IMG/VR virus record: IMGVR_UViG_3300050121_000016
Span: 1 to 20,418 of that record
Length of the DNA: 20,418 nt
Direction: 5' to 3' (one strand)
Origin: a virus
Part shown: piece by piece, positions 842-20,262 of the stretch
Numbering within the stretch: position 1 is the first letter of the stretch
How the letters are laid out: every line of letters starts with the position of its first letter
Notes under the pieces: model-generated
The model's database searches: none
The model's input: only the letters and a program-made list of their open reading frames with translations
What the model was told of the DNA's origin: nothing
Translations under genes and position numbers: made by a program

Positions 842-2125
842 TTAATTTATATCAATCATGTTACTGATTATTATATTAATATTCCCCTTATCACAACTAT
901 ATTTCATCCTAATATAAATATCATAAGGAACCGTGACCACTTGGTGTATTTGAGTTGTGGTTCCTTGTGATAATCCAAAGGATAATACATTTAAAAGAGT
1001 GGATAAAAGAAACTGTCCCAGTCCCGCGGTGGTTGCATTAACTATAACTGATGCTATTTGTAGTAATGATTTATTACTATCATCTTTATAATTAATATTT
1101 ACCCCTGTTATTCCTTTAGTAGACGATGGCATGTGTATTTTTATGACAATAGAATCACCATCATGTATTGGTTTATTATACCTTGTTGCATATGCAGCAT
1201 ATGTGTCAATTTCATAGCCATTTATTAAAATATATGCAAGATACACCAACCCATCTCCATAGTCTTGTGCGGGACTAGGATTATATGATACTATCAAAGA
1301 ATTAGTACAACCCTGGCTACCTGGTGGAGGTATTGCTATACAAGAACCATTTGCATTTGCGTATGCCGGACCATTGTAGTTAACAGTCGTTATGGCTTTC
1401 ATGTCTGCATCCTCTTGGCTTATATTTGAGGTGTACGTGTTCGCAGGTATTGTATATGTAACTGTTGAACCCGTATATCCTGTACCGCAGTCATTTTTAA
1501 AAAACACATTTGAATATGCTGCATTGTAGTACAATCCCGTACCTGTAAACATACTTCCCTCAATATTCAATACGCCATTTCCATTGTGATAGGTGAACGT
1601 TTGGCTAGCTGTTACATCAATACCCGTAACAGGAACATTGTAAGCTAATCCTCTTGTACTTGATATTGATACATTTGATGTTCCATAAGCGACATAGCCG
1701 TTCATCGAGACATTTACAGTAACTACGTCCCCATCATTTATGGTTAATGAACCCGATTGGCTCAAATCGTCAACATACACAACCGATGAATAATTGACTG
1801 TTATTTGTAAATATCCACCCCCTGCATATGACGTTTTTGTAAAAGACCAATTAAGGTTAGCCGTTGTAATGCCAACGAGTTGAGACTTTGTTACGAGTTG
1901 GTTTTTTGGCATTCCTGCGAGATATGATGTGTCTATATTTAAATAATACATAACTGCCTGTTTTGTCATCCAGTTAGTTCCATTAGGTAACGGGTTTTTC
2001 TGAAATATCCCACTCCCCTGTGCATCCTGAAACGATACCCATTGATTTGAAGTAAGACTCCCCCATCCAATTTGAGCCTGACAGACAGAACTAAACAGTA
2101 GTAATATTAATAGTAACTTTCTCAT
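842..2125 (-). CDS. Exported adhesin/fibre-like protein with DUF5977-like domain
   Basis: 427 residues. The N-terminus MRKLLLILLLFSSVCQAQ is a Sec signal peptide with predicted cleavage after CQA (residue 17), leaving Gln at +1. Residues about 28-85 (NQWVSFQDAQGSGIF, then MTKQ, then NQLVTKSQL) resemble the N-terminal repeats of Bacteroidota phage fibres. Residues about 100-200 are Ser/Thr/Gly-rich beta sequence. Residues about 205-262 (CGTGYTGSTVTYTIPANTY, then SQEDADMKA, then NGPAYANANGSC) match my memory of DUF5977, a short module of secreted Bacteroidota proteins. The C-terminal 150 residues contain one hydrophobic stretch at about 360-385. Its start overlaps the stop of the S74-domain gene by 4 bases, so translation is coupled. 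It is likely a receptor-binding or surface protein; the role is inferred. Confidence 0.75.
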   Translation of the reverse strand: MRKLLLILLLFSSVCQAQIGWGSLTSNQWVSFQDAQGSGIFQKNPLPNGTNWMTKQAVMYYLNIDTSYLAGMPKNQLVTKSQLVGITTANLNWSFTKTSYAGGGYLQITVNYSSVVYVDDLSQSGSLTINDGDVVTVNVSMNGYVAYGTSNVSISSTRGLAYNVPVTGIDVTASQTFTYHNGNGVLNIEGSMFTGTGLYYNAAYSNVFFKNDCGTGYTGSTVTYTIPANTYTSNISQEDADMKAITTVNYNGPAYANANGSCIAIPPPGSQGCTNSLIVSYNPSPAQDYGDGLVYLAYILINGYEIDTYAAYATRYNKPIHDGDSIVIKIHMPSSTKGITGVNINYKDDSNKSLLQIASVIVNATTAGLGQFLLSTLLNVLSFGLSQGTTTQIHQVVTVPYDIYIRMKYSCDKGNINIIISNMIDIN

Positions 2126-4074
2126 TTCTTTGTAATGTATTTGTAAACAACTCTTTTACTTGTGTTTTTCAAGAACATTTCTTTCAGTTCGTTTACTTCT
2201 TTTCTAAGTTCTTTATTTTCCTCGGTAAGCTCCTGAATAGCCTTGATCTCTAACCCGTGCAAGGTGTAGGTGTTAATTGCAGTGCCCTTATTCATCAAGA
2301 CATACTTTGCAACTGATTGAGGAATTTCATCTATAATGAACCCCAACGTGCTGTCAACTTCAGGTCTTGCCTTGTAGTTAAAATCCCGTAATTTAAACTT
2401 GCTTAATTCATCGGTTGCAGTACCTACCCAATCTTTGTGAATGTTTTTAAGTGAACGTGACGAGTTAAAACCCCCCCCGTTTGCTGTTATACTTCCACTT
2501 GTGTACAAGTTTCCTGATACGTCTAATGTGGCATATCCTGATATGGTTTTTAGTTTAATCCCTGCCCATCCCTGTAAGGTCACTACTGACCCGTATCCAT
2601 TTGTTGTTCTTAATCCAAGTCCATAATTAGGGTTTCCATCGCTATCATTATCGCCAACTGCCAACGATATATAACCTGCACCCTGTTTAGCCCAACTGTA
2701 AATTGTGGGGTCAGTTTCAGAATATCCCGTTATAAAACCTGCCCCGTTAGTAAGCTGATTTGTGTTCGTAGGTATAGTAAATACACCTGTTGTTGAGTTG
2801 TATGCACCCGAACCTGCTGTGAAAGATACTGCTGACCTTGCAAGTGCATCTGTATATTGTGTTATCGTGTTTGTGATTGTATTGCCTGTTCTTGAAAGTC
2901 CTGTCGAGAAAGTCAATGCAGGTTCATAATCAGTTCCTGATGTTGCTGCCGACATTGCAGTTCCATTTCCTTTCAGTAAACCTGTTACTGATGTTGAAAG
3001 TGTCAAAGCGGGATTAACACCTCCACTAGATGTACCTGCAAATCCATTTGCTGAATTTACACTTACCGATACAACAGTCCCACCCAGACCTCCAGATGGT
3101 ATTGCTTGTGTGCTTAGTATTCCTGTATTGTCAGCAACTACCATTCTTGTGCCGGTGCCTGATAGTCCACCTATTGTCATACCTCCCGTTAATGAAATAT
3201 TTCCTCCTGCATACAAGTTTATTGTAGGGATAAAACTACCACCATCACTATAATAACCAGTTCTCCATGCATTATTAGCTACCTGACCTAGACAATTATC
3301 TATAACTATTCCTGAATATCTTCCAAGATACCAATCATTGATACCTGAACCTCTTGGATAAATAGAGTATCCAGCTGTATAATTTAGGTCTGATGCAGAA
3401 TTAAGAACGCTGGCAGTCCAGGGGGTTGATGTGTTATTTGAATTATTATCATCCCATAGAGTTTTCCAATTAGTCCACGAATTGTGTCCAGAAGCATCGT
3501 AATTGCCAAATCTAACTTTCATGCTATTCCCCCCGGATGTTGGACTTGCAGGTGCGTAAAACTGCATTGCACCCCCTGCATCTGTATTTTCGCTTATTGC
3601 AGTAATTACAGTTCCATAGTGAGGAAATCCCAAGGCAACATTAACGTGATCAACTCTTAAACTAGCACTAAATGAAGCTGGTAAAACAGAAGCATATAAT
3701 ACATCATAGTTTGCTCCAATATATGTGATGTTATTTGTAAATTGGCTTAATGTAGTAGGAAAATCGCTTACCTGTGATTTGGTGATTGATATCCCGGTAC
3801 TTTTGTTCCATGCAGTGAAGACTGGATCAGTCTCTTGTTTTGACTCCAAATCAGTACCGATCACGCACGTTGCAATGGTCTTAGTCGAAAGTAATGGAAC
3901 CTTTGTGAAGTACTCATTGAACGTGTTGCAGTCAATGATCATAGTGCCTTTCGGCAAATTGATACCAAACTCTGTAACGTTGTTTGGCACTCTCAAAGTT
4001 AATCCGGGTGTACCCTGCCCGAAACCAATCAGGCAGGAACTAACCAGTAAAAGAATTATCAGTAGTCTTTTCAT
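2122..4074 (-). CDS. Exported tail-fibre-like protein with C-terminal S74 self-cleaving chaperone domain
   Basis: 650 residues. Residues 1-20 form a signal peptide (MKRLLIILLLVSSCLIGFGQ). Cleavage after GFG leaves Gln20 at +1, but VSSC (11-14) also fits a lipobox. Residues about 24-76 are homologous to the N-terminus of the 528-residue fibre (PN, then PL, then TC(I/V)xGTD). Residues about 140-212 end in SWTNWKTLWDDNN and resemble phage fibre 'knob' repeats. Residues about 330-460 contain common fibre motifs, including DYEPALTFSTGLSRTGNTI. Residues 538-650 form a Peptidase_S74 intramolecular chaperone: S538xxxxK543 matches the Ser/Lys dyad spacing of endosialidase chaperones, GFIIDEIP is the usual core, and a coiled coil (about 605-635) closes the protein. 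In known S74 proteins the domain folds the trimer and then cuts itself off. A G8 tract lies at codons 533-535. Confidence 0.85.
   Translation of the reverse strand: MKRLLIILLLVSSCLIGFGQGTPGLTLRVPNNVTEFGINLPKGTMIIDCNTFNEYFTKVPLLSTKTIATCVIGTDLESKQETDPVFTAWNKSTGISITKSQVSDFPTTLSQFTNNITYIGANYDVLYASVLPASFSASLRVDHVNVALGFPHYGTVITAISENTDAGGAMQFYAPASPTSGGNSMKVRFGNYDASGHNSWTNWKTLWDDNNSNNTSTPWTASVLNSASDLNYTAGYSIYPRGSGINDWYLGRYSGIVIDNCLGQVANNAWRTGYYSDGGSFIPTINLYAGGNISLTGGMTIGGLSGTGTRMVVADNTGILSTQAIPSGGLGGTVVSVSVNSANGFAGTSSGGVNPALTLSTSVTGLLKGNGTAMSAATSGTDYEPALTFSTGLSRTGNTITNTITQYTDALARSAVSFTAGSGAYNSTTGVFTIPTNTNQLTNGAGFITGYSETDPTIYSWAKQGAGYISLAVGDNDSDGNPNYGLGLRTTNGYGSVVTLQGWAGIKLKTISGYATLDVSGNLYTSGSITANGGGFNSSRSLKNIHKDWVGTATDELSKFKLRDFNYKARPEVDSTLGFIIDEIPQSVAKYVLMNKGTAINTYTLHGLEIKAIQELTEENKELRKEVNELKEMFLKNTSKRVVYKYITKK
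2471..2478 (-). repeat. Homopolymeric G8 tract in the fibre gene, just before the S74 domain
   Basis: Eight consecutive C on the plus strand, read as GGG GGG GG(T) on the coding strand (Gly533-Gly535). It is immediately 5' of codons F-N-S538, where the self-cleaving chaperone domain begins. Long G runs are rare in AT-rich DNA and are prone to slipped-strand mispairing. A one-base change would remove the whole C-terminal domain. The slippage role is inferred; the tract itself is plain in the sequence. Confidence 0.9.
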
Positions 4075-4109: not shown

Positions 4110-6071
4110 TTAAAATGTGTAACTTACTGTAACAGAATCATACTGATATACAGGTATTGACACTCGAACTGTATTTGTTGAGACTGTATATTGAGAAGGT
4201 TTTAAAACTCCCCCATTTAGACTTACCTGTACTGCTGTTACTGCTTTTGGGGTATTAGTCAAAGTATTTACCTGACCTGTTGAACCTGCTGCTGCTTCGG
4301 CAAATGTTTCTACCTTATAGAGTGTAGGTACATCTGCATTTACAATAGCAACGTGATTCCATGTAGTTCCGTCACTTCTTAAAAAGTCACCTGCTGTTGG
4401 TGCGCCTGATTGAATAGCATAACCTTGTATTTTTACAACTGATAAAGCAGCTGCGTTTGTAGAGTTGGTCACATCACCATTGTGTGTAACATTTGAAACT
4501 AATCCAGAATATAGGGAGTTGACTGCATTGTCTCCACTATTAGTATTAGTAGTATTATTCAGTACTGTAATCTTTGCATCGGTTACATAGTTCTTATCCG
4601 TTGAAGCTGCCACATTTGCAGTTGTTAAAGTAACTACTCCTAATTGACCATTTACTGACACTACCTTATTATTATTGTAAACCTGTTGCCAAATAGTGCC
4701 ATTTGATACAATCCAGTCACCAATAGAAAATGCTATACTTTGCTGTGTACCTGCTGCTGAAATGGTGTAATACTTTCCTTTATTTCCTACTGCCGAGGGT
4801 AAGGTAGGAGTGTTATTTGAAGCATCATAAGTACCTTGGTAGCTGACAGAACCAAGTAAAGAAGCATCCATTTGAGTTAAAGGCACATGACCTGATGCAT
4901 CCAAAGAGGCTACACCGTTATTTGCACCAATAGCAGTATTGCTTATTTTTGTTGCTAAACTTGAAGTAAGTCTGTCACGTCTCACATAACCATCGGTAGC
5001 AGTTGAATCGCTATGATCCATCTTTGTATTAACAAGTGCTATTTTAGCATAATGAGCTAACATTGCAGCCGAATCAGAAAGATTTAACTTTAAATTAAGT
5101 GCATTCTGTTGTGCTGTTGAAACAGGTTTACCTACATCGGTTGTGTTATCTACGTTTGCAAGTCCTACCTGTGTTTTAGTTACCGAATGAGGGTTATCAG
5201 TTCGTGCTATATGTCCTTGAATATTCGTATTTGCAGGTTCAAAATCAGAAGTAGATGAATTTGCTGCTGATCCGAATGTTCTGTAATTTAACTTAGTTGC
5301 CAGTGAACTGGTTAGCCTATCTCTACGAACATAACCATCTGTTGCTGTACTGTCACTTTTATCTTTTTTAGATAGTGCCTTATAATTTGTATAAAATCCT
5401 GAACCAACTACACTATCATTTTTTAACTTAAAAGATAAAATAGTAGATGCTAATCTATCTCTTCTAACATATCCGTCTGTTGCTGTTGAATCACTCTTAT
5501 CCTTCTTACTTAATGCCTTGTAATTGGTGTAATATCCTGTGCTTGTTATAGTGTCATTCTTGTCTTTCTTTACTGAAATATCTGGTATAGTTGGTTTGTT
5601 TAAAAGACTATCATAAGTCTCATGAACTGTCCAGTATCTATATAATGATTTATTTAATCCTACAAGTTTTAAACTATCTGTATTTGTGTAATCTTTAGTA
5701 GACAGTTTCTTCCCTGTAATTTTATCTACTTTTAAATTTAGTTGATTATTAAGATAAGTAGGTGTAATATATTTATTTAATGAATCTGCTAAATTAAGTT
5801 TAAGAGAAAGTAAACTATCTACTTTAACCTTAGTATAACCTAATGCAGCCAAACTATCAATAGAGTGGTATAATCCTCTAGCAGTTGCTAATTTTCTCCA
5901 TCCATATTGTGAGGTTAGATAAATCCATACTGTATTATCAGTTGTATAATAACTAAATGAGAATGGAGATATATTCTTAAAGTTTGCATCAGTAGGTTTA
6001 GTATCTGATTGAGCAAAAGAAGTTTTTGCTAATATTAAAAATAGTGAGAAAAAAAATAGTATCTTTTTCAT
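4110..6071 (-). CDS. Exported tail-fibre-like protein with TDGYVRRDRL repeats
   Basis: 653 residues from the ATG at 6071. A longer frame opens at 6209, but its extra 46 residues overlap the upstream fibre gene, whereas the ATG at 6071 follows that gene's stop after 4 bases and begins a clear signal peptide (MKKILFFFSLFLILAKTSFA, then Gln21 at +1). Residues about 60-165 are Lys/Leu/Ser-rich and look helical. Three repeats with the core SDSTATDGYVRRDRL lie at about 178-207, 224-253 and 353-375. Residues about 287-330 (ARTDNPHSVTKTQVGLANVDN, then KPVSTAQQNAL) are the widespread phage tail-fibre motif. Residues about 400-500 include GDWIVSNGTIWQQV and VSVNGQLGVVTLT, also typical of fibres. The C-terminus is a beta-rich tip. 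The N-terminal half is markedly more AT-rich than the C-terminal half. Confidence 0.85.
   Translation of the reverse strand: MKKILFFFSLFLILAKTSFAQSDTKPTDANFKNISPFSFSYYTTDNTVWIYLTSQYGWRKLATARGLYHSIDSLAALGYTKVKVDSLLSLKLNLADSLNKYITPTYLNNQLNLKVDKITGKKLSTKDYTNTDSLKLVGLNKSLYRYWTVHETYDSLLNKPTIPDISVKKDKNDTITSTGYYTNYKALSKKDKSDSTATDGYVRRDRLASTILSFKLKNDSVVGSGFYTNYKALSKKDKSDSTATDGYVRRDRLTSSLATKLNYRTFGSAANSSTSDFEPANTNIQGHIARTDNPHSVTKTQVGLANVDNTTDVGKPVSTAQQNALNLKLNLSDSAAMLAHYAKIALVNTKMDHSDSTATDGYVRRDRLTSSLATKISNTAIGANNGVASLDASGHVPLTQMDASLLGSVSYQGTYDASNNTPTLPSAVGNKGKYYTISAAGTQQSIAFSIGDWIVSNGTIWQQVYNNNKVVSVNGQLGVVTLTTANVAASTDKNYVTDAKITVLNNTTNTNSGDNAVNSLYSGLVSNVTHNGDVTNSTNAAALSVVKIQGYAIQSGAPTAGDFLRSDGTTWNHVAIVNADVPTLYKVETFAEAAAGSTGQVNTLTNTPKAVTAVQVSLNGGVLKPSQYTVSTNTVRVSIPVYQYDSVTVSYTF
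4947..5540 (-). repeat. Three in-gene repeats encoding SDSTATDGYVRRDRL in a fibre gene
   Basis: Copy A is at 5451-5540, copy B at 5313-5402 and copy C at 4947-5015 (C is shorter). A and B encode identical protein over 27 residues from YTNYKALSKKDK to VRRDRL. By my codon-by-codon comparison they differ synonymously in 15 of the 27 codons. Copy C shares the SDSTATDGYVRRDRL core and a following TSSLATK with copy B, again with different codons. Confidence 0.9.
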
Positions 6072-6075
6072 AAGT

Positions 6076-7662
6076 TTAAAGTTGATAATCAAATTGTAAA
6101 GCAAATGATGATGTACTTGTAGTTGTTGCGTGATAGTAAAAATATCCAGTAGTAGCTGAATTAATAATAATGAGCCCAGAAGTAAATGTAGTACTAATAT
6201 TTCCTTCATTAATTGTTGCTACTCCTACACCTTGTGGATAATTAGAATTTATAACAGGGAGTGAAAAGCCTAACTGTACTGAACCTGTAGCTGTTGGGGT
6301 TACAGACCCATTAATTGAAACATGAACAACACTACCAAGTCTTATATAACTAACAAAAACAGCAGTACTACTTGTTATATTTGTAGTATTTGTTAGTGAT
6401 GGAACATAAGTACCACTTATAAAATTAGATGCAGTCACACTACCATCTATATTTACATTTCCTTGATTAAATTGATAAGCAAATTTATTAGTAGAATGTC
6501 TCCAATCTACTGTAAACCCATTGTTTACTAAGTAAATCCCTGCTCTAAATATCTTTCTGTTATCAGTAGAATCTCCTGCTACAGCATTTAATCCATAAGT
6601 AGAGGAGCTATCATTATTAAGAGTTCCTACATCTAAAGAACTAATACCTTGTGGTGCAGTAAGTACTGAATATCCAACTGTTGAAATGCCACCACTATTA
6701 AGATTTATATCCCCCCTGTTAAACTTATAACTAAACTTTGATGTAGAATTTATCCAATCAATATTTAATCCATCATCCCCTGTATCAAATCCTACTTTAA
6801 ATAACTTTCTATTTGCACCAATATAACTAATTACAGATACACCATATACTCCTGTACTATCTCCATTATAAGAGAAGAAATCAGCAGTTGCATATCCAGT
6901 ATGTCCTACCATTCTTAACTCAGTTCCTATAAGTGGAGTAGTAAGTGTACCACCTGTTAATCCATAATCTGCAAATATGGTAGGGTGATATCCACTATAC
7001 CACTGTGCATTATTGGTAACATTAGATAACCCTACTTCAGCTTTAGTATAATTAGGTTTAAGTGGTTGCTTAGCCCAAGGATAAACATCAGAAGCTGGAA
7101 GTGTTATAGGATAATCAGGAAGCCCATACCCAATAGGTGTAATAGGGTGAAATCCTGAGTACCATTGTTTATGATTAAGTACACTATCTAACCCTATTTC
7201 TGATTTAGTATAAGTAGGTTTTACAGATGCTTTTGCCCAAGTATAAATAGTTGGGTCACTTTCTGAAGATATATAACCAGCAGGATTAGTTGAATTATAA
7301 GGAGTAAATCCTAAATTATTTTGTTTAGTGTTATTAATAGCAAGTATAGTAGAATAGAATCTTGCTAAACTTACATATCCTGAAGTAGTCCCAGTGCTAT
7401 CATTAGAATATTTATAAGAACCTAACCCTGATTCAATAATATCAGTACCTAAAATACAGGTAGATAAACTCTTTATACCAGATAAAGGTTGTAATACAAG
7501 ATATTCCTTATAATTGGATTGATTAATGATCTTTACAAACGCAGGAATATTATCTACAAATGATAAAGTAGCATTGGGTATTTTTACTATTTTAGTGGTA
7601 ACTACCTGACTATTAGAATAGAGAGTAAATAATAATAGTAAGATAGTTAAATATTTTTTCAT
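6076..7662 (-). CDS. Exported tail-fibre-like protein with two internal duplications
   Basis: 528 residues. The signal peptide MKKYLTILLLLFTLYSNS is followed by Gln19 at +1. Residues about 24-78 match the N-terminal domain of the 650-residue fibre (KEY, PL, then STCILGTD). Residues 142-170 and 196-224 are a repeat of the form WAKxxxKPxYTKxE(I/V)GL ending QWYSG(F/Y)HP; the YTKAEVGL element is common in phage fibres. Residues 268-321 and 351-405 are a second duplication, with shared NRK(L/I)F, DW, STxKF and a closing N(I/L). Residues about 416-528 form a beta-rich C-terminal tip starting SGTYVPSLTNTTNI, a pattern I recall from Bacteroidota phage and prophage fibres. It starts 3 bases after the 290-residue tail gene ends, so it is co-transcribed with virion genes. 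Confidence 0.85.
   Translation of the reverse strand: MKKYLTILLLLFTLYSNSQVVTTKIVKIPNATLSFVDNIPAFVKIINQSNYKEYLVLQPLSGIKSLSTCILGTDIIESGLGSYKYSNDSTGTTSGYVSLARFYSTILAINNTKQNNLGFTPYNSTNPAGYISSESDPTIYTWAKASVKPTYTKSEIGLDSVLNHKQWYSGFHPITPIGYGLPDYPITLPASDVYPWAKQPLKPNYTKAEVGLSNVTNNAQWYSGYHPTIFADYGLTGGTLTTPLIGTELRMVGHTGYATADFFSYNGDSTGVYGVSVISYIGANRKLFKVGFDTGDDGLNIDWINSTSKFSYKFNRGDINLNSGGISTVGYSVLTAPQGISSLDVGTLNNDSSSTYGLNAVAGDSTDNRKIFRAGIYLVNNGFTVDWRHSTNKFAYQFNQGNVNIDGSVTASNFISGTYVPSLTNTTNITSSTAVFVSYIRLGSVVHVSINGSVTPTATGSVQLGFSLPVINSNYPQGVGVATINEGNISTTFTSGLIIINSATTGYFYYHATTTSTSSFALQFDYQL
6448..7239 (-). repeat. Two pairs of internal coding repeats in the 528-residue fibre gene
   Basis: Pair 1 lies at 7153-7239 and 6991-7077 and encodes the WAK-KP-YTK-E-GL-QWYSG unit. 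Pair 2 lies at 6700-6861 and 6448-6612 and encodes a unit of about 54 residues with NRK(L/I)F near its middle and STxKF(S/A)Y near its end. The copies have diverged at protein level, so these are old duplications of the kind that lengthen fibre shafts. Confidence 0.8.
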
Positions 7663-7665
7663 AAT

Positions 7666-8538
7666 CTATTTCTTTAATACAATATACCCTGATACATTAG
7701 ACCCTATATCATAAGTTATAGAATCTAATTTTCCACTTATTCTTGTTAATTTAGGAGTTGCCTGACTAATTTGTTCTGTATCAAATTCATCTACTATAAC
7801 AAGTATAGTAGTAGGATATTGTCCATAAGCAGGATAAATAGTATTATAAGATGTTATTGAAGGAGTTGGGGTATCTACAAAATAAATAATTGCATTTTCT
7901 AATGTTCCTATTGGAACAACACTTGTAGAAAGCACATTCTTACCAATTCCATAAATTATAAACACTTTTTCATATTGAGTAAGTGGTGTAGCAAAAGAAA
8001 TCTGTCCTATTAAATTACTAAACCCATAATCAGTAGTAGTTAATGGTTGTGTCTCTCTTATAATCTGAATAACAGTAGCATTAATAAGTTCTGGTATAGT
8101 AATTTGTGATGTACTTCCTGTAGCTATATAAGTAGTACTTAAAGTCCTTTCATACCTTAATACATTAGATAAATTAAGAGCTACATTATAGTTAGGTATC
8201 ATCATTCCACTTAATCCTGATTCGTCCTCATGTTGGTAATTATCATAAATAACTCCCTGCATTATAGTAGCTACTAAATCATCTAATTGTTTTGAACTAA
8301 TAGACACATTAAGCAAACTAACTAAATGTTTAATAATAGTAATTACTTGCGAAGATACAATATTTGTAGTTGTTCCTAATTTAATAATCATCCATGTATA
8401 CATAGAGATTATATTTAAATCAGTAAGTTCTCTTGAAGTATTATTAACACCTATTCTCCAATGTTTTATAAGACTATCAATCCTTTTAAGGTAGGAAGTA
8501 TTTACTAATTGCCCAAATATACTTAAGTTTGTATCCAC
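7666..8538 (-). CDS. Probable tail/virion structural protein, function unknown
   Basis: 290 residues with no signal peptide and no membrane segment. The first 110 residues look helical (LVNTSYLKRIDSLIKHW, then a stretch with SSKQLDDLVATIMQG). From about residue 125 onward it is beta-rich, with TSQITIPELINATVIQIIRE and later segments ending SNVSGYIVLKK. The gene sits 2 bases after the 198-residue gene and 3 bases before the first fibre gene, a tight cluster between ring/structural proteins and fibres. This position suggests a fibre-attachment or distal tail component. The assignment rests on context and style of sequence, since I do not recognise a named family. Confidence 0.65.
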   Translation of the reverse strand: MDTNLSIFGQLVNTSYLKRIDSLIKHWRIGVNNTSRELTDLNIISMYTWMIIKLGTTTNIVSSQVITIIKHLVSLLNVSISSKQLDDLVATIMQGVIYDNYQHEDESGLSGMMIPNYNVALNLSNVLRYERTLSTTYIATGSTSQITIPELINATVIQIIRETQPLTTTDYGFSNLIGQISFATPLTQYEKVFIIYGIGKNVLSTSVVPIGTLENAIIYFVDTPTPSITSYNTIYPAYGQYPTTILVIVDEFDTEQISQATPKLTRISGKLDSITYDIGSNVSGYIVLKK

Positions 8539-13385: not shown

Positions 13386-14855
13386 CTATCCTAGTATGTT
13401 AGGTTTAAATGTTGCAGTACGAGTTGGGTCTTTAATCATAGCACCACCAATAAAGGCTCTGTGTTCTGTCCAACCATCAACTGAAGAAGCCATTACCCTA
13501 TTAGGTTTACCTACTGTGAATGGGTCACGTAATCCTGGAATAAATCCACGAATATCACCATTATTCTTCAAGTAAACTTTCTGGATATTTGGGCCACCAT
13601 CAGAAGTTCCCATATTCAGGATATCATATACATAAGACTCAGCAAGTCCCTGTTTACCAGGCATGTAAATCTTATTTCTTTCCAAATCATCCTTAAGTGA
13701 ATCATGTACAATGTTTACTTTGATTCCATTAGGGCCAGTATACTCAAGGAACTGTCCTCTGAATCCCATTGTGTTACCACCTGCATTATAAATACGGTAG
13801 TTATCACGAGCAGGTAAATAAAGAGTTGAATGATACTCAAGAGCTTCTGAAAACTGATACATTCCCCATTCACCTGTAAGAACTGTAACTTCTCTTTGTC
13901 CCTGTACAATCTTACCAACTGTTAAGTCAAGTAACATTTCAGTAAACTTCTTGATGTTAAATTCTGTATAAGTGTTAAAGTTGGCAGCTTCCATTTGCTG
14001 TTTAATACCAGCACCCATTTGAATAGTATAACCAGATTTTCCTTTCTGCATATAGTTGTTAGCAGCAGTCCTATTAGCTGTTGCATACATTAACATCTTA
14101 GAAATTTCATCCTGATACTGCATTTCAAATTCATAAGTTCTGTAGTCCATCCAAGTAGTCATAATTTTCTTGGTAGTAGGATCAACCCAACTAAATTTAA
14201 CAGGTCTTTCAATCATGTTACCTGGAACAGTATCTTCCATACGAATCATAGTGAAAGCATTCTGCATTTTGAATGGGAAAGTATAATGCACTCCACCACC
14301 TTTTTTAGACAGAGTTCTTTCTACAGGAGAGAAGTCTTTACTAAATCTCTTACCAGCAGCTAATTCTTCAAAAGGAATAAATAAGTCAGGATTACCTGTC
14401 ATAAGTCTACATTGGAACTGATAGTTATTTCCAAGAGGTTTAGCATCACTCATTATCTGAATGGGATAAACTTCATTTCTTTCACCTACAATAAGATTTA
14501 CATCTGTAAAGTAAGCTTCAGGGAAAGTCAGGTAAAATTCTGTATAGTTTTTACCTACCTTGTCAGCAGCAGTAATAGCAGAACCACCATCTGTAAGGCT
14601 AGCCTTTACCAATGGAATATTCTTTTTACCATTACTTACCAAATCCCAAGTAAAATCATCATCAGAGTCTAAATAAAGTGCTGGAAATCTTTCCAGATAA
14701 GCAGCAACTGTAGCTCCGAAATTAGCCTGATGTATCATTGTGGCAACTTTGGTAGCCTGTTGTGGCTCAATACCAAATCTATATCCTAAATTTGCTTGTG
14801 TTACCAGCCCTGTGATATCATCATTTTCATACATTTGAAATGGTGAAATTCTCAT
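13386..14855 (-). CDS. Probable major capsid protein
   Basis: 489 residues, close to the size I remember for capsid proteins of crAss-like phages (about 490-510). It begins MRISPFQMYENDDITGLVTQ, has a helical N-terminal segment with EPQQATKVATMIHQANFGA, and continues as mixed alpha/beta sequence without signal peptide or membrane segments, compatible with a HK97 fold. RNYMQKGKSGY-type elements (NNYMQKGKSGYTIQMGAGIK, about 267-286) and a C-terminal AFIGGAMIKDPTRTATFKPN are notable. The gene directly follows the acidic putative scaffold after 30 bases and ends in a strong terminator, the usual arrangement for the most abundant virion protein. It ends with TAG, and the next in-frame codons fall in the terminator, so TAG is not recoded here. 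Assignment is by context, size and resemblance. Confidence 0.8.
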   Translation of the reverse strand: MRISPFQMYENDDITGLVTQANLGYRFGIEPQQATKVATMIHQANFGATVAAYLERFPALYLDSDDDFTWDLVSNGKKNIPLVKASLTDGGSAITAADKVGKNYTEFYLTFPEAYFTDVNLIVGERNEVYPIQIMSDAKPLGNNYQFQCRLMTGNPDLFIPFEELAAGKRFSKDFSPVERTLSKKGGGVHYTFPFKMQNAFTMIRMEDTVPGNMIERPVKFSWVDPTTKKIMTTWMDYRTYEFEMQYQDEISKMLMYATANRTAANNYMQKGKSGYTIQMGAGIKQQMEAANFNTYTEFNIKKFTEMLLDLTVGKIVQGQREVTVLTGEWGMYQFSEALEYHSTLYLPARDNYRIYNAGGNTMGFRGQFLEYTGPNGIKVNIVHDSLKDDLERNKIYMPGKQGLAESYVYDILNMGTSDGGPNIQKVYLKNNGDIRGFIPGLRDPFTVGKPNRVMASSVDGWTEHRAFIGGAMIKDPTRTATFKPNILG

Positions 14856-16227: not shown

Positions 16228-16740
16228 TTATCCAAGTAAATCCTTAAATTCTTCTTCCATATAATGTTTCATATTAGGATTATCCTCTCCTATAAGGTTG
16301 AATGAATCTATTAATTTTCTTGCTTTTACAATTTCTTCTCTCTGCTCATTAATAAACCAAGTACAGAATTCAAATGTAGGTCTGTCATTATCTCTAAGTG
16401 CTTTTGCAGATAAAATATTATATACCTTTTCAGTATCAACTTCTCTCTCAAATACTTTAGTAAGTACTTCACTCATTCCTGTAAACTCTATTATAGGTTT
16501 ATCTAATGCAGGAACAATTATTTTTCCATTCCTATCATCAATATATTCCTTTACTTTAGTTGCATGAGTGTGTTCTTCTTCACCCCAATTTTGAAATACT
16601 TCAGCAGCACTATTAAATCCTGTCTTACTAAAGTAACTAGACATTCCAAAATAGATATGCCCATTAGTGTATTCATGTAACACTGCTTTATTAAGCATTG
16701 CTTCAATTTCATCTGATATTAATTTAGGTAATGTTATCAT
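16228..16740 (-). CDS. ftnA-like: Ferritin (FtnA-type, non-haem) encoded in the phage capsid operon
   Basis: 170 residues, the usual length for bacterial ferritin. Compared by eye with E. coli FtnA, every ferroxidase-centre ligand is present at a constant offset of 6: Glu23, Tyr30, Glu56, His59 (ExxH), Glu100, Gln133 and Glu136. The flanking sequence also matches (PTFEFCTWFINEQREE against the PTFNFLQWYVSEQHEE of FtnA). Family knowledge: such proteins assemble as 24-subunit cages that oxidise Fe(II) and store ferric mineral. There is no signal peptide, so it acts in the cytoplasm or inside the virion. The start codon overlaps the stop of the lysozyme-like gene by 4 bases. It could protect phage DNA or the infected cell from iron-driven oxidation, or hold iron for the host-cell programme; its role in the particle is unknown. 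Confidence 0.93.
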   Translation of the reverse strand: MITLPKLISDEIEAMLNKAVLHEYTNGHIYFGMSSYFSKTGFNSAAEVFQNWGEEEHTHATKVKEYIDDRNGKIIVPALDKPIIEFTGMSEVLTKVFEREVDTEKVYNILSAKALRDNDRPTFEFCTWFINEQREEIVKARKLIDSFNLIGEDNPNMKHYMEEEFKDLLG

Positions 16741-17889: not shown

Positions 17890-20262
17890 TTATTTATTTG
17901 AGGTTACTTTATTTGGTTTATTTAATGCTTTTTCTTTGAGTTGTAAATCTTTATCCTTCTGTTGTTCCTTAATAAGAGATTGTCTAACAGACTCTTGTAA
18001 CTCCTGTTGTCTTAACTGGGTATCAGTTTCAAACTTTTCTCTTTCCAATGGATTTTCAGTTTCAGGTGGAGGTGTTCCAGAACCTTCAAGTTTCATTAGT
18101 TCAACTTCAATCTGAGTATTCATTTCAAGAGTTTTAATCTCCATTTCATGAGCTTGGATATCCTCTCTATTCTCAATATTCATTTGAGCTAAATCCTTTT
18201 CATGTTGTTGTTGTGCAGTAATATTATCCTGTTGTCTTTGCAAAGATTCCTGTTCATAAGTTTCAATCTTACGTCTTGTATCAGCAATTGATTGAGACAT
18301 AAATATATCCATGAATGAGCTAAAGTTAAGTTTATCATTCTGAATACCTGCTTGTGCAAGTTGTAACATCATATTTCTTAATTCTCCCTGGAATGAACTA
18401 TCAGTCATTACTAATCCATAGTCAGCTTCAGATAACTGCCCACCATCTAACTTATATATTTCTTGAGCAAGATCAGTATCCATAATATACTGTGCTACCT
18501 TACTATCATTCATATAAGCATACTTAGCAGTCTCAAGTAAAACTTCTAAAGCTCTTAACTTAGTAAAATCATGTATTAAGAAATATTCTTCAGTAGAGTG
18601 TGATGATTGAGTAACTGACCTTTCAACCCCACCTACAGTCTCCCTATTATCAATAGAACCTTCTCTTTGAGGAGTTATGCCAATAGAATGACCTAAAGCT
18701 TCTTCAATATAAGCAATAAGTCCCATAGTATCCTTAATATAGTTTCCCATATCAGGATTAAATACCTTCTGAGAAGTATTAAAATTACCAGCTAATTTTC
18801 CTGTAGCAGCACCTTTATCAGCTTCTTTAAATGAATCAATAGGAAGATATCCCATCTCTTCACCATAGTAAATCCACTTATCAAAGTCCCATCCATCAGG
18901 AGCTTTAGCAAGGTCTAACTCAATCATTGGGCCTTTATACTTTGCAATAGCTTTCTCAAGTCTGTACATTAAAGTATTATACATGTATAGATAAGGTTTA
19001 GCCTTATCCATTAAACTATGACTCTTGTTAGAATTAGTATTATAAATAGTTCCTACATAACCTGAACCACAGATAGATAAATTATCCATTCTTCTGAATT
19101 GTACAGGTCTAGGTTGGCTTTTTAAATAAATATCATAACCAACTCTCCAACCTTCCCACCATTCATTAATCCACATCCACTTAACTTCCTGTCCAAGAGT
19201 TTTATCCACAGTATAGTTTTCATCAACTATCATGTGTTGCTCCTCATTCTCTTCATAATATTTTAAGTCACCAACCTTACGTCTTGATTTCCATACTACT
19301 CTGGTAACTCTAATATTACCTTCTTCATCATAAGCAGCATTACCATAATTATTATCAGCTATCTCAATACTGCCATCAGGCATATTAGCATATCTCATAA
19401 AAGGATTATTGGCAGCAGGATAGTCTATAAGTGGTTTACCAGAACTTCTTTGCTGATTACCCCTCTCAATTTGTTCCACCTGATCAGGAGTTAATTCATC
19501 ATAAAATACATCTATAACCCAACCAATTGAATGATAAGTATCTTCTACTATAATATCTGCATCTTCAATATAAGGGGATGAAGTCATACCTACTGTATAG
19601 ATAGTTAAAGGATTAACCCTTCTCATAATAGGTTTACCACCTATAATATCTGCACAGTAAATTTCTTCACCTGCTATTAAAGCATCTTTATATCCTTGAT
19701 TAAAAGTAAGTTTAAGTTTCTGCTCCTGATATAAATGATTCAATACTTGTGTTCCAATTCTTTCTCTTAAATCCTGAGCTTCATATTTACCCCATCTTTG
19801 AATTGCAGCAGCCTTTTGTTTAGCTTCATTTTCATCAGTAACTCCCTGAACTGCAAGAGCCATTAATTCCTGAATCATGTGATCCTTAATGAATTTCTCC
19901 TTTTCAGAAACAGCATCATCATTAGTAACTCTAAGTCTCCAATCAAATTTCCTTTTAGATTCTTCTCCAATTAAGACAGCTATCTTATTGGTTACTATTG
20001 GATAGCACTGCATCTTTGCAGGAAAAGTATTGGCATCTAAGCCCCAAGGATTAATAGTTTTCTCAATATCTCTCTGATCTAATACACCATCATAAAGCCT
20101 ATAATTAGCTCTCATGTTATATTTAGATTCTCTTAATCTTGTGTCAGAATTATATAAAGCTAAAGTAAGACCAGCATCCACACATTTTTTAGTCCATTCA
20201 GCATCTTTTTCCTTAAATGCCAACTTCTGTGGAGGGAAATTTTTTCTAATGATCGGATACAC
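17890..20262 (-). CDS. Portal protein
   Basis: 790 residues from a GTG at 20262. An in-frame stop lies at 20269-20271, and the only alternative start before residue 50 is a CTG two codons upstream, so GTG is the best choice. NFPPQKLAFKEKDAEWTKKC (8-27) is the N-terminal pattern I recall in portals of Bacteroidota phages. Residues 52-105 (NYRLYDGVLD, then NPWGLDA, then NKIAVLIGEESKRKFDW) are also portal-like. The middle (about 190-470) is mixed alpha/beta, and residues 500-560 include GHSIGITPQREG and the helix bearing ERSVTQSS. From about 665 to 790 the protein is a Gln/Glu/Lys-rich coiled coil, like the barrel region of long portals. The portal forms the ring through which DNA is packaged. 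Terminase would be expected upstream, outside the window. Confidence 0.85.
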   Translation of the reverse strand: MYPIIRKNFPPQKLAFKEKDAEWTKKCVDAGLTLALYNSDTRLRESKYNMRANYRLYDGVLDQRDIEKTINPWGLDANTFPAKMQCYPIVTNKIAVLIGEESKRKFDWRLRVTNDDAVSEKEKFIKDHMIQELMALAVQGVTDENEAKQKAAAIQRWGKYEAQDLRERIGTQVLNHLYQEQKLKLTFNQGYKDALIAGEEIYCADIIGGKPIMRRVNPLTIYTVGMTSSPYIEDADIIVEDTYHSIGWVIDVFYDELTPDQVEQIERGNQQRSSGKPLIDYPAANNPFMRYANMPDGSIEIADNNYGNAAYDEEGNIRVTRVVWKSRRKVGDLKYYEENEEQHMIVDENYTVDKTLGQEVKWMWINEWWEGWRVGYDIYLKSQPRPVQFRRMDNLSICGSGYVGTIYNTNSNKSHSLMDKAKPYLYMYNTLMYRLEKAIAKYKGPMIELDLAKAPDGWDFDKWIYYGEEMGYLPIDSFKEADKGAATGKLAGNFNTSQKVFNPDMGNYIKDTMGLIAYIEEALGHSIGITPQREGSIDNRETVGGVERSVTQSSHSTEEYFLIHDFTKLRALEVLLETAKYAYMNDSKVAQYIMDTDLAQEIYKLDGGQLSEADYGLVMTDSSFQGELRNMMLQLAQAGIQNDKLNFSSFMDIFMSQSIADTRRKIETYEQESLQRQQDNITAQQQHEKDLAQMNIENREDIQAHEMEIKTLEMNTQIEVELMKLEGSGTPPPETENPLEREKFETDTQLRQQELQESVRQSLIKEQQKDKDLQLKEKALNKPNKVTSNK

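Follow-up and report, generated by a model that had tools for sequence, protein, structure and literature searches.

The assembly of tailed phages is usually described as cytoplasmic, and S74/ICA domains are known from endosialidase NF (endoNF), the GA-1 neck appendage and MyRF. In MyRF, S587/K592 are equivalent to S911/K916 of endoNF, and cleavage requires both residues (PMC8326128; here and below, statements cited to the literature rest on excerpts of the papers). The MAT fibres of Bdellovibrio, cellular surface fibres of a predator, combine a signal peptide, a conserved N-domain of ~130 residues, diverse fibre bodies and an S74 end, and the C-terminal region of Bd3182 has been shown to cleave itself at S782 (PMC10769870). 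In Crassvirales, the tail fibre gp22 of crAss001 docks via its residues 1-26 (PMC10172136), and the paper describing it uses neither "signal peptide" nor "signal sequence". That variable fibre-like proteins lack a signal peptide has been cited in support of their phage origin (PMC6199706). Here we analysed an IMG/VR fragment of a crAss-like phage (Crassvirales; IMGVR_UViG_3300050121_000016, positions 1 to 20,418), called the window at its full length of 20,418 bases, in which one gene of the tail locus, P0001 (Table 1), encodes a predicted signal peptide, a small N-domain, a modular fibre body and an S74 end. On balance, P0001 appears to be one of a set of virion fibres or spikes that would leave the cytoplasm by the Sec pathway and, once outside it, be trimmed and folded, with late attachment to particles. 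The layout resembles that of the MAT fibres and here belongs to a phage gene; the N-domains (~60 residues in P0001) are likened by description only.

The open reading frame (ORF) of P0001 is intact. Its C-terminus is, by profile comparison and predicted fold, an S74 intramolecular-chaperone domain lying under the level of Pfam detection: PF13884 gave nothing on P0001 up to E 1 and no match in the whole window, and searches of P0001 against Pfam, PDB sequences and PHROG did not yield the S74 name. Using its last 125 residues as the query, matches were obtained in three viral contigs at 71-81% identity; two of them (L106 and L107) are identical across the 12,300 bases compared, leaving two independent relatives, L105 and L106. 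In hhalign, a profile of these two and P0001 matched (E 1.2e-8, probability 95.6%) an S74 profile built from two crAss domains and 20 domains of Bacteroidota chromosomes. Residues 515-650, modelled by AlphaFold on a 23-sequence alignment, gave a structure of moderate confidence (predicted local distance difference test, pLDDT, 80.5; low at 515-535), and its top ten Foldseek matches were all S74/ICA chains of MyRF ICA, endosialidase and GA-1-type chaperones (7dc3, 3gw6 and 3gud, the last presumably the GA-1 protein; best E 3.8e-3, prob 1.0). A VIA comparison of the same model gave Z 7.2/6.3/5.8, the next entry reaching 3.2. The S74 domain that the original prediction had read from this product is thus borne out by profile and fold.

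P0001 shares with the S74/ICA family the predicted fold, the C-terminal position, a long terminal helix and a Ser/Lys pair at +5. The proposed catalytic pair, Ser538 and Lys543, is unchanged across the three close relatives (P0001, L105 and L106) and spaced as in MyRF and endoNF. Self-cleavage at Ser538 with Lys543 is likely, because the dyad is conserved at +5 and two profile methods, hhalign and hmmsearch, each align Lys543 with the catalytic Lys; the assignment of Ser538 is based on spacing and conservation. Unlike in the family, P0001 is joined to a signal peptide and the Asp that usually follows directly after the catalytic Ser is missing, its place being taken by Ser in P0001 and by Leu in L105 and L106.

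The N-terminus of P0001 is, as predicted by a home-made rule and not by SignalP, a Sec signal peptide of the Bacteroidota Q-rule type. It reads MKRLLIILLLVSSCLIGFG followed by QGTPG, with a basic n-region, a hydrophobic core, small residues at -3/-1 and a signal peptidase I site (GFG/Q20, the slash marking the cut) that places Gln at +1, in agreement with the export signal first proposed. Gln after the signal peptidase I site is the Q-rule of Bacteroidota (PMC5837995). The N-domain that follows was found by phmmer in P0003 and the S74 protein of L106 as well (domain E 8e-9 and 3e-11), and a fold search with its model (pLDDT 69.8) gave no significant match (best E 0.8).

The two ends had seemed at odds on the premise that S74 domains normally work in the cytoplasm, a premise that calls for revision. 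Of 296 Bacteroidota genomes, 87 had a PF13884 match, and among 40 of these 87, each examined through its best match with upstream DNA, 30 carried a Q-rule signal at the start of the S74 protein by a generous heuristic that accepts a signal at any Met up to residue 80 of the frame. Some of the ten without a signal by this rule look signal-like by eye and two are truncated at contig ends; about 12 of the 30 look like one family. The genes surveyed are chromosomal, and single ones may be of prophage origin. These proteins are like P0001 in joining a Q-rule signal to S74, and unlike it in being chromosomal and in mostly having the SDxxxK motif. The Bdellovibrio fibres tell likewise against the premise. 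The combination is therefore not odd in Bacteroidota, and the unusual part is its phage setting. Both features of P0001 are real and probably functional, and, of the two options originally offered, folding after export is preferable to an N-terminus that avoids export and serves another purpose.

The larger finding, absent from the original prediction, is that this signal is one of several on consecutive fibre genes. Q-site signals start all five cassette proteins of the window (P0001-P0005), with a joint chance of ~2e-5 as obtained by shuffling the residues downstream of the hydrophobic core over the five proteins. Counting from the first Met of each ORF, a Q-rule signal was seen in 1 of 641 ORFs in 53 viral loci of capsid relatives and in 4 of 19 in the window; P0004 escaped this count because its frame holds an earlier Met (the longest ORF would start at 6209, and its start was set at 6071).

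L105 and L106 are the only two independent relatives found for the cassette. In both, the S74 protein and the adjoining P0002 orthologue retain Q-rule signals, though the bodies differ, and L106 has a beta-helix domain in its cassette. P0002, the best conserved gene of the set, adjoins the S74 gene in all three phages, the ends overlapping or nearly touching; when the P0002 family served as query in a second scan, no further cassette was found. A crAss capsid was looked for in the L105 and L106 contigs and none was found, the positive control (G000) having worked, and therefore the cassette moves between kinds of phages. Codons 1-18 of P0002 show one synonymous and four non-synonymous changes between the window and L105, too few for a selection test; the small number of synonymous changes possibly reflects recent recombination. 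The L106 S74 protein lacks a fibre body and may be a minimal or decayed S74 fibre. A first scan with the whole of P0001 as query had mostly returned a common fibre repeat, from contigs without such signals, and L108, one weak match in the genome contig scan, is probably due to chance and served only as a Bacteroidota centre.

Signals of the same kind occur on proteins recorded in phage particles. In five Cellulophaga phages, 8 of 56 coding sequences (CDS) recorded as virion proteins by tandem mass spectrometry (MS/MS) begin with Q-rule signals, the label being the depositors' note (entries truncated after "part of structural virion", or after just "part of", were counted as virion proteins, and one truncated phi14:2 gene was excluded). 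They belong to phi10:1, phi18:3 and phiSM (Table 1), and in the first two they form runs. Similar runs of signal-bearing fibre genes are present in phi46:3, phi13:2 and Ingeline, and the records place these phages in Assiduviridae, Pachyviridae or Duneviridae, or leave them without a family. The Cellulophaga fibres resemble P0001 in bearing signals and differ from it in that no S74 was noticed in them. The body of phi10:1 gp093 recurs at 93% identity on a different signal-bearing start in phi46:3 gp081. Since bodies and starts recombine, the start can be regarded as an exchangeable module, with a body that works with or without export.

Because similarly tagged fibres are recorded in particles of other Bacteroidota phages, this crAss-like phage may also export its fibres before attachment, and Bacteroidota phages with tagged fibres may in general send them through the membrane first. 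P0001 would be translated with its Q-rule signal peptide and exported, whereupon host signal peptidase I would cut before Gln20 and the new Gln would probably become pyroglutamate, as expected from the Q-rule. The S74 domain could then join three chains, fold the fibre in the periplasm and cut at Ser538 with Lys543. The fibre would meet finished heads and tails at lysis or late at the envelope, docking via its N-domain, and would end up in the released particle, by comparison with the MS/MS-recorded proteins described above. The simplest account is that of true virion fibres which mature beyond the cytoplasm and join late, with export and late joining inferred. A wider and more tentative proposal, not quite as probable as that for P0001, is that several unrelated Bacteroidota phage lineages assemble in two compartments. 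Heads and tails would be made in the cytoplasm, while the fibres would be Sec-exported, trimmed, pyroglutamate-capped, folded (here with S74) and self-cut in the periplasm and fitted at lysis, an exchangeable signal-bearing N-module deciding the compartment in which the fibre matures.

Several observations weigh against this interpretation. The presence of P0001 in virions is argued by analogy with Cellulophaga phages, the window phage being known from its genes alone, and a periplasmic fibre would somehow have to reach a cytoplasmic tail. P0001 has no direct sequence homology with the MS-recorded Cellulophaga proteins; the sole homology link is that of L113, on the same contig as L106, to phi10:1 gp094 (E 7e-10). 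The MS/MS labels come from the depositors, and some of the proteins so labelled may be contaminants from vesicles or cell debris. No Q-rule signal was found on the 14 virion CDS of crAss-like phi14:2 (last 40 kb) or on the five of phi40:1 (first 50 kb), and the S74 fibre of phi40:1 carries no signal. Likewise, only two of eight crAss relatives have a signal-bearing fibre-like gene of >200 amino acids in their tail stretches: an 833-amino-acid one in G002, positioned as in the window, and a 507-amino-acid one in G006, at another position and adjoining a signal-free S74 fibre (L098 1841-5842, minus strand); in the tail stretches of the other six, no signal-bearing gene of >200 amino acids with a Q site was found. 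Since nearby phages lack such signals, export would be an option and not a need. In phi17:2_18, a homologue (~49%) of the phi10:1 gp093 body follows a start without a signal, so that body can fold without export; nature has in this pair run its own experiment on what the signal does. A caveat on the S74 motif is that MAFFT alignment prefers a shifted register there, which, if right, would spoil the Ser538/Lys543 dyad.

The main alternative is that the signal-bearing fibres are exported to work on the infected cell or in its vicinity, by surface display, matrix degradation or blocking of a second phage, and are not virion parts, the recorded ones sticking to particles. The exported chromosomal S74 proteins of Bacteroidota, presumably located at the cell surface, would fit such a role, as would the enzyme domains of the cassettes (the GDSL esterase of L105 and the beta-helix of L106) and the signal-bearing lyase proteins noted for Ingeline and Nekkels (Bartlau 2021, PMC8776804). 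It is nevertheless rather unlikely, given the same kind of signal on eight MS/MS-recorded virion proteins. Moreover, no signal-free fibre-like gene is left in the window between 7666 and 154 (7666-8538 is unassigned and the fragment possibly incomplete), and the particle would therefore receive no fibre from this locus.

A retained hydrophobic anchor, with cytoplasmic folding and a helix used for docking or membrane contact, is improbable. The docking of crAss001 gp22 through its first 26 residues and the signal-free start of the phi17:2_18 homologue could be read in its favour; a signal peptidase I site before Gln in all five window genes and in the relatives would have no obvious use in an anchor. 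The lipid anchoring at Cys14 that had been suggested is very hard to maintain: the loose lipobox match VSSC is a string match only, hydrophobic residues follow the Cys, which has no counterpart in the L106 S74 protein (despite the same N-domain), P0003 or P0004 and occurs only in P0001, and the site of Gln20 type is common to all. That the start is signal-like by chance or through a wrong start codon, as a rule-based prediction on predicted starts might allow, is scarcely credible in view of the five signal-bearing genes, their retention in two other phages and the low base rate in loci of relatives.

If Bacteroidota phage fibres do pass through Sec as favoured here, the rule that no signal peptide means phage origin would fail for this large group. 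Mature fibres would begin at Gln and not at Met, host periplasmic enzymes could modify them, and fibres could be displayed or released by infected cells that have not yet lysed, with consequences for superinfection and for laboratory fibre production. Signals on virion fibres seem to have been little noticed. The open-access literature searched, seen partly as excerpts, holds no statement that Sec-signal-bearing fibres are virion parts, most subscription papers lying outside this scope, so that calling the idea unpublished would be a weak claim; it also holds nothing joining Crassvirales with signal peptides, or phages with both peptidase S74 and a signal peptide. P. gingivalis phages are reported to carry Q-rule genes without a known function (PMC10367356).

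The motif D[ST][AILVMT], a periplasmic O-glycosylation motif, was taken as a possible mark of export. It was observed 73 times (62 expected) in 24 signal-bearing proteins and 78 times (89 expected) in 18 signal-free ones, the count being high in P0004-type proteins and low in Cellulophaga proteins. Cysteine counts showed no clear pattern.

The window belongs to Crassvirales by its major capsid and portal proteins, and the relatives of its capsid protein comprise 125 phage records, including Bacteroides, Flavobacterium and Cellulophaga phages. Synteny comparison gives the order of head-tail genes followed by fibre genes.

Table 1. Coordinates of the features discussed, in the window unless another contig or phage is named (a slash marks the predicted signal peptidase I cut; aa, amino acids)
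Feature	Position	Strand	Remarks
P0001, S74 fibre protein, 650 aa	2122..4074	minus	signal peptide, small N-domain, modular fibre body, S74 chaperone
Signal peptide, P0001 residues 1-19	4018..4074	minus	predicted cut before Gln20; rule-based
Cys14 codon, lipobox candidate	4033..4035	minus	not conserved
N-domain, P0001 residues 20-80	3835..4017	minus	common to P0003 and the 217-aa S74 protein of L106
S74 chaperone/protease domain, P0001 residues about 538-640	2155..2463	minus	profile comparison, fold, alignment
Ser538 codon, P0001	2461-2463	minus	
Lys543 codon, P0001	2446-2448	minus	
P0002, DUF5977, 427 aa	842..2125	minus	signal peptide CQA/QIG; start overlaps P0001 stop
P0003, fibre-like, 528 aa	6076..7662	minus	signal peptide SNS/QVV; N-domain as in P0001
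P0004, tail-fibre-like, 653 aa	4110..6071	minus	signal peptide SFA/QSD; phrog_13892 E 1.1e-26
P0005, 100 aa	154..456	minus	signal peptide TMA/QQR
Major capsid protein, Crassvirales	13386..14855	minus	PF23898 E 4.9e-121
Portal protein	17890..20262	minus	phrog_6547 E 4.9e-126
S74 fibre, L105	1016-4315	plus	1,099 aa; signal peptide, P0004-type N-domain, central GDSL esterase (PF13472 E 2.7e-15), same S74
S74 protein, L106	5689-6342	plus	217 aa; signal peptide, P0001-type N-domain and S74 only
Homologous fibre body	L194 1565-4453, L189 44100-46433	plus	signal-free start in phi17:2_18, signal-bearing in phi10:1
phi10:1	gp091-gp094		4/12 virion CDS with Q-rule signal (first 50 kb)
phi18:3	gp085-gp087		3/4 virion CDS with Q-rule signal (first 50 kb)
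phiSM	gp08		1/21 virion CDS with Q-rule signal (first 50 kb)

Two further genes of the window were recorded. A 116-aa hydrophobic protein with several likely membrane spans is encoded between P0002 and P0005 (468-818, minus strand) and could be a lysis or membrane gene. A ferritin-like gene (16228-16740, minus strand; PF00210 E 2.6e-24) is placed between the portal and capsid genes, and it has matches at the same position in L038, L039 and L051.

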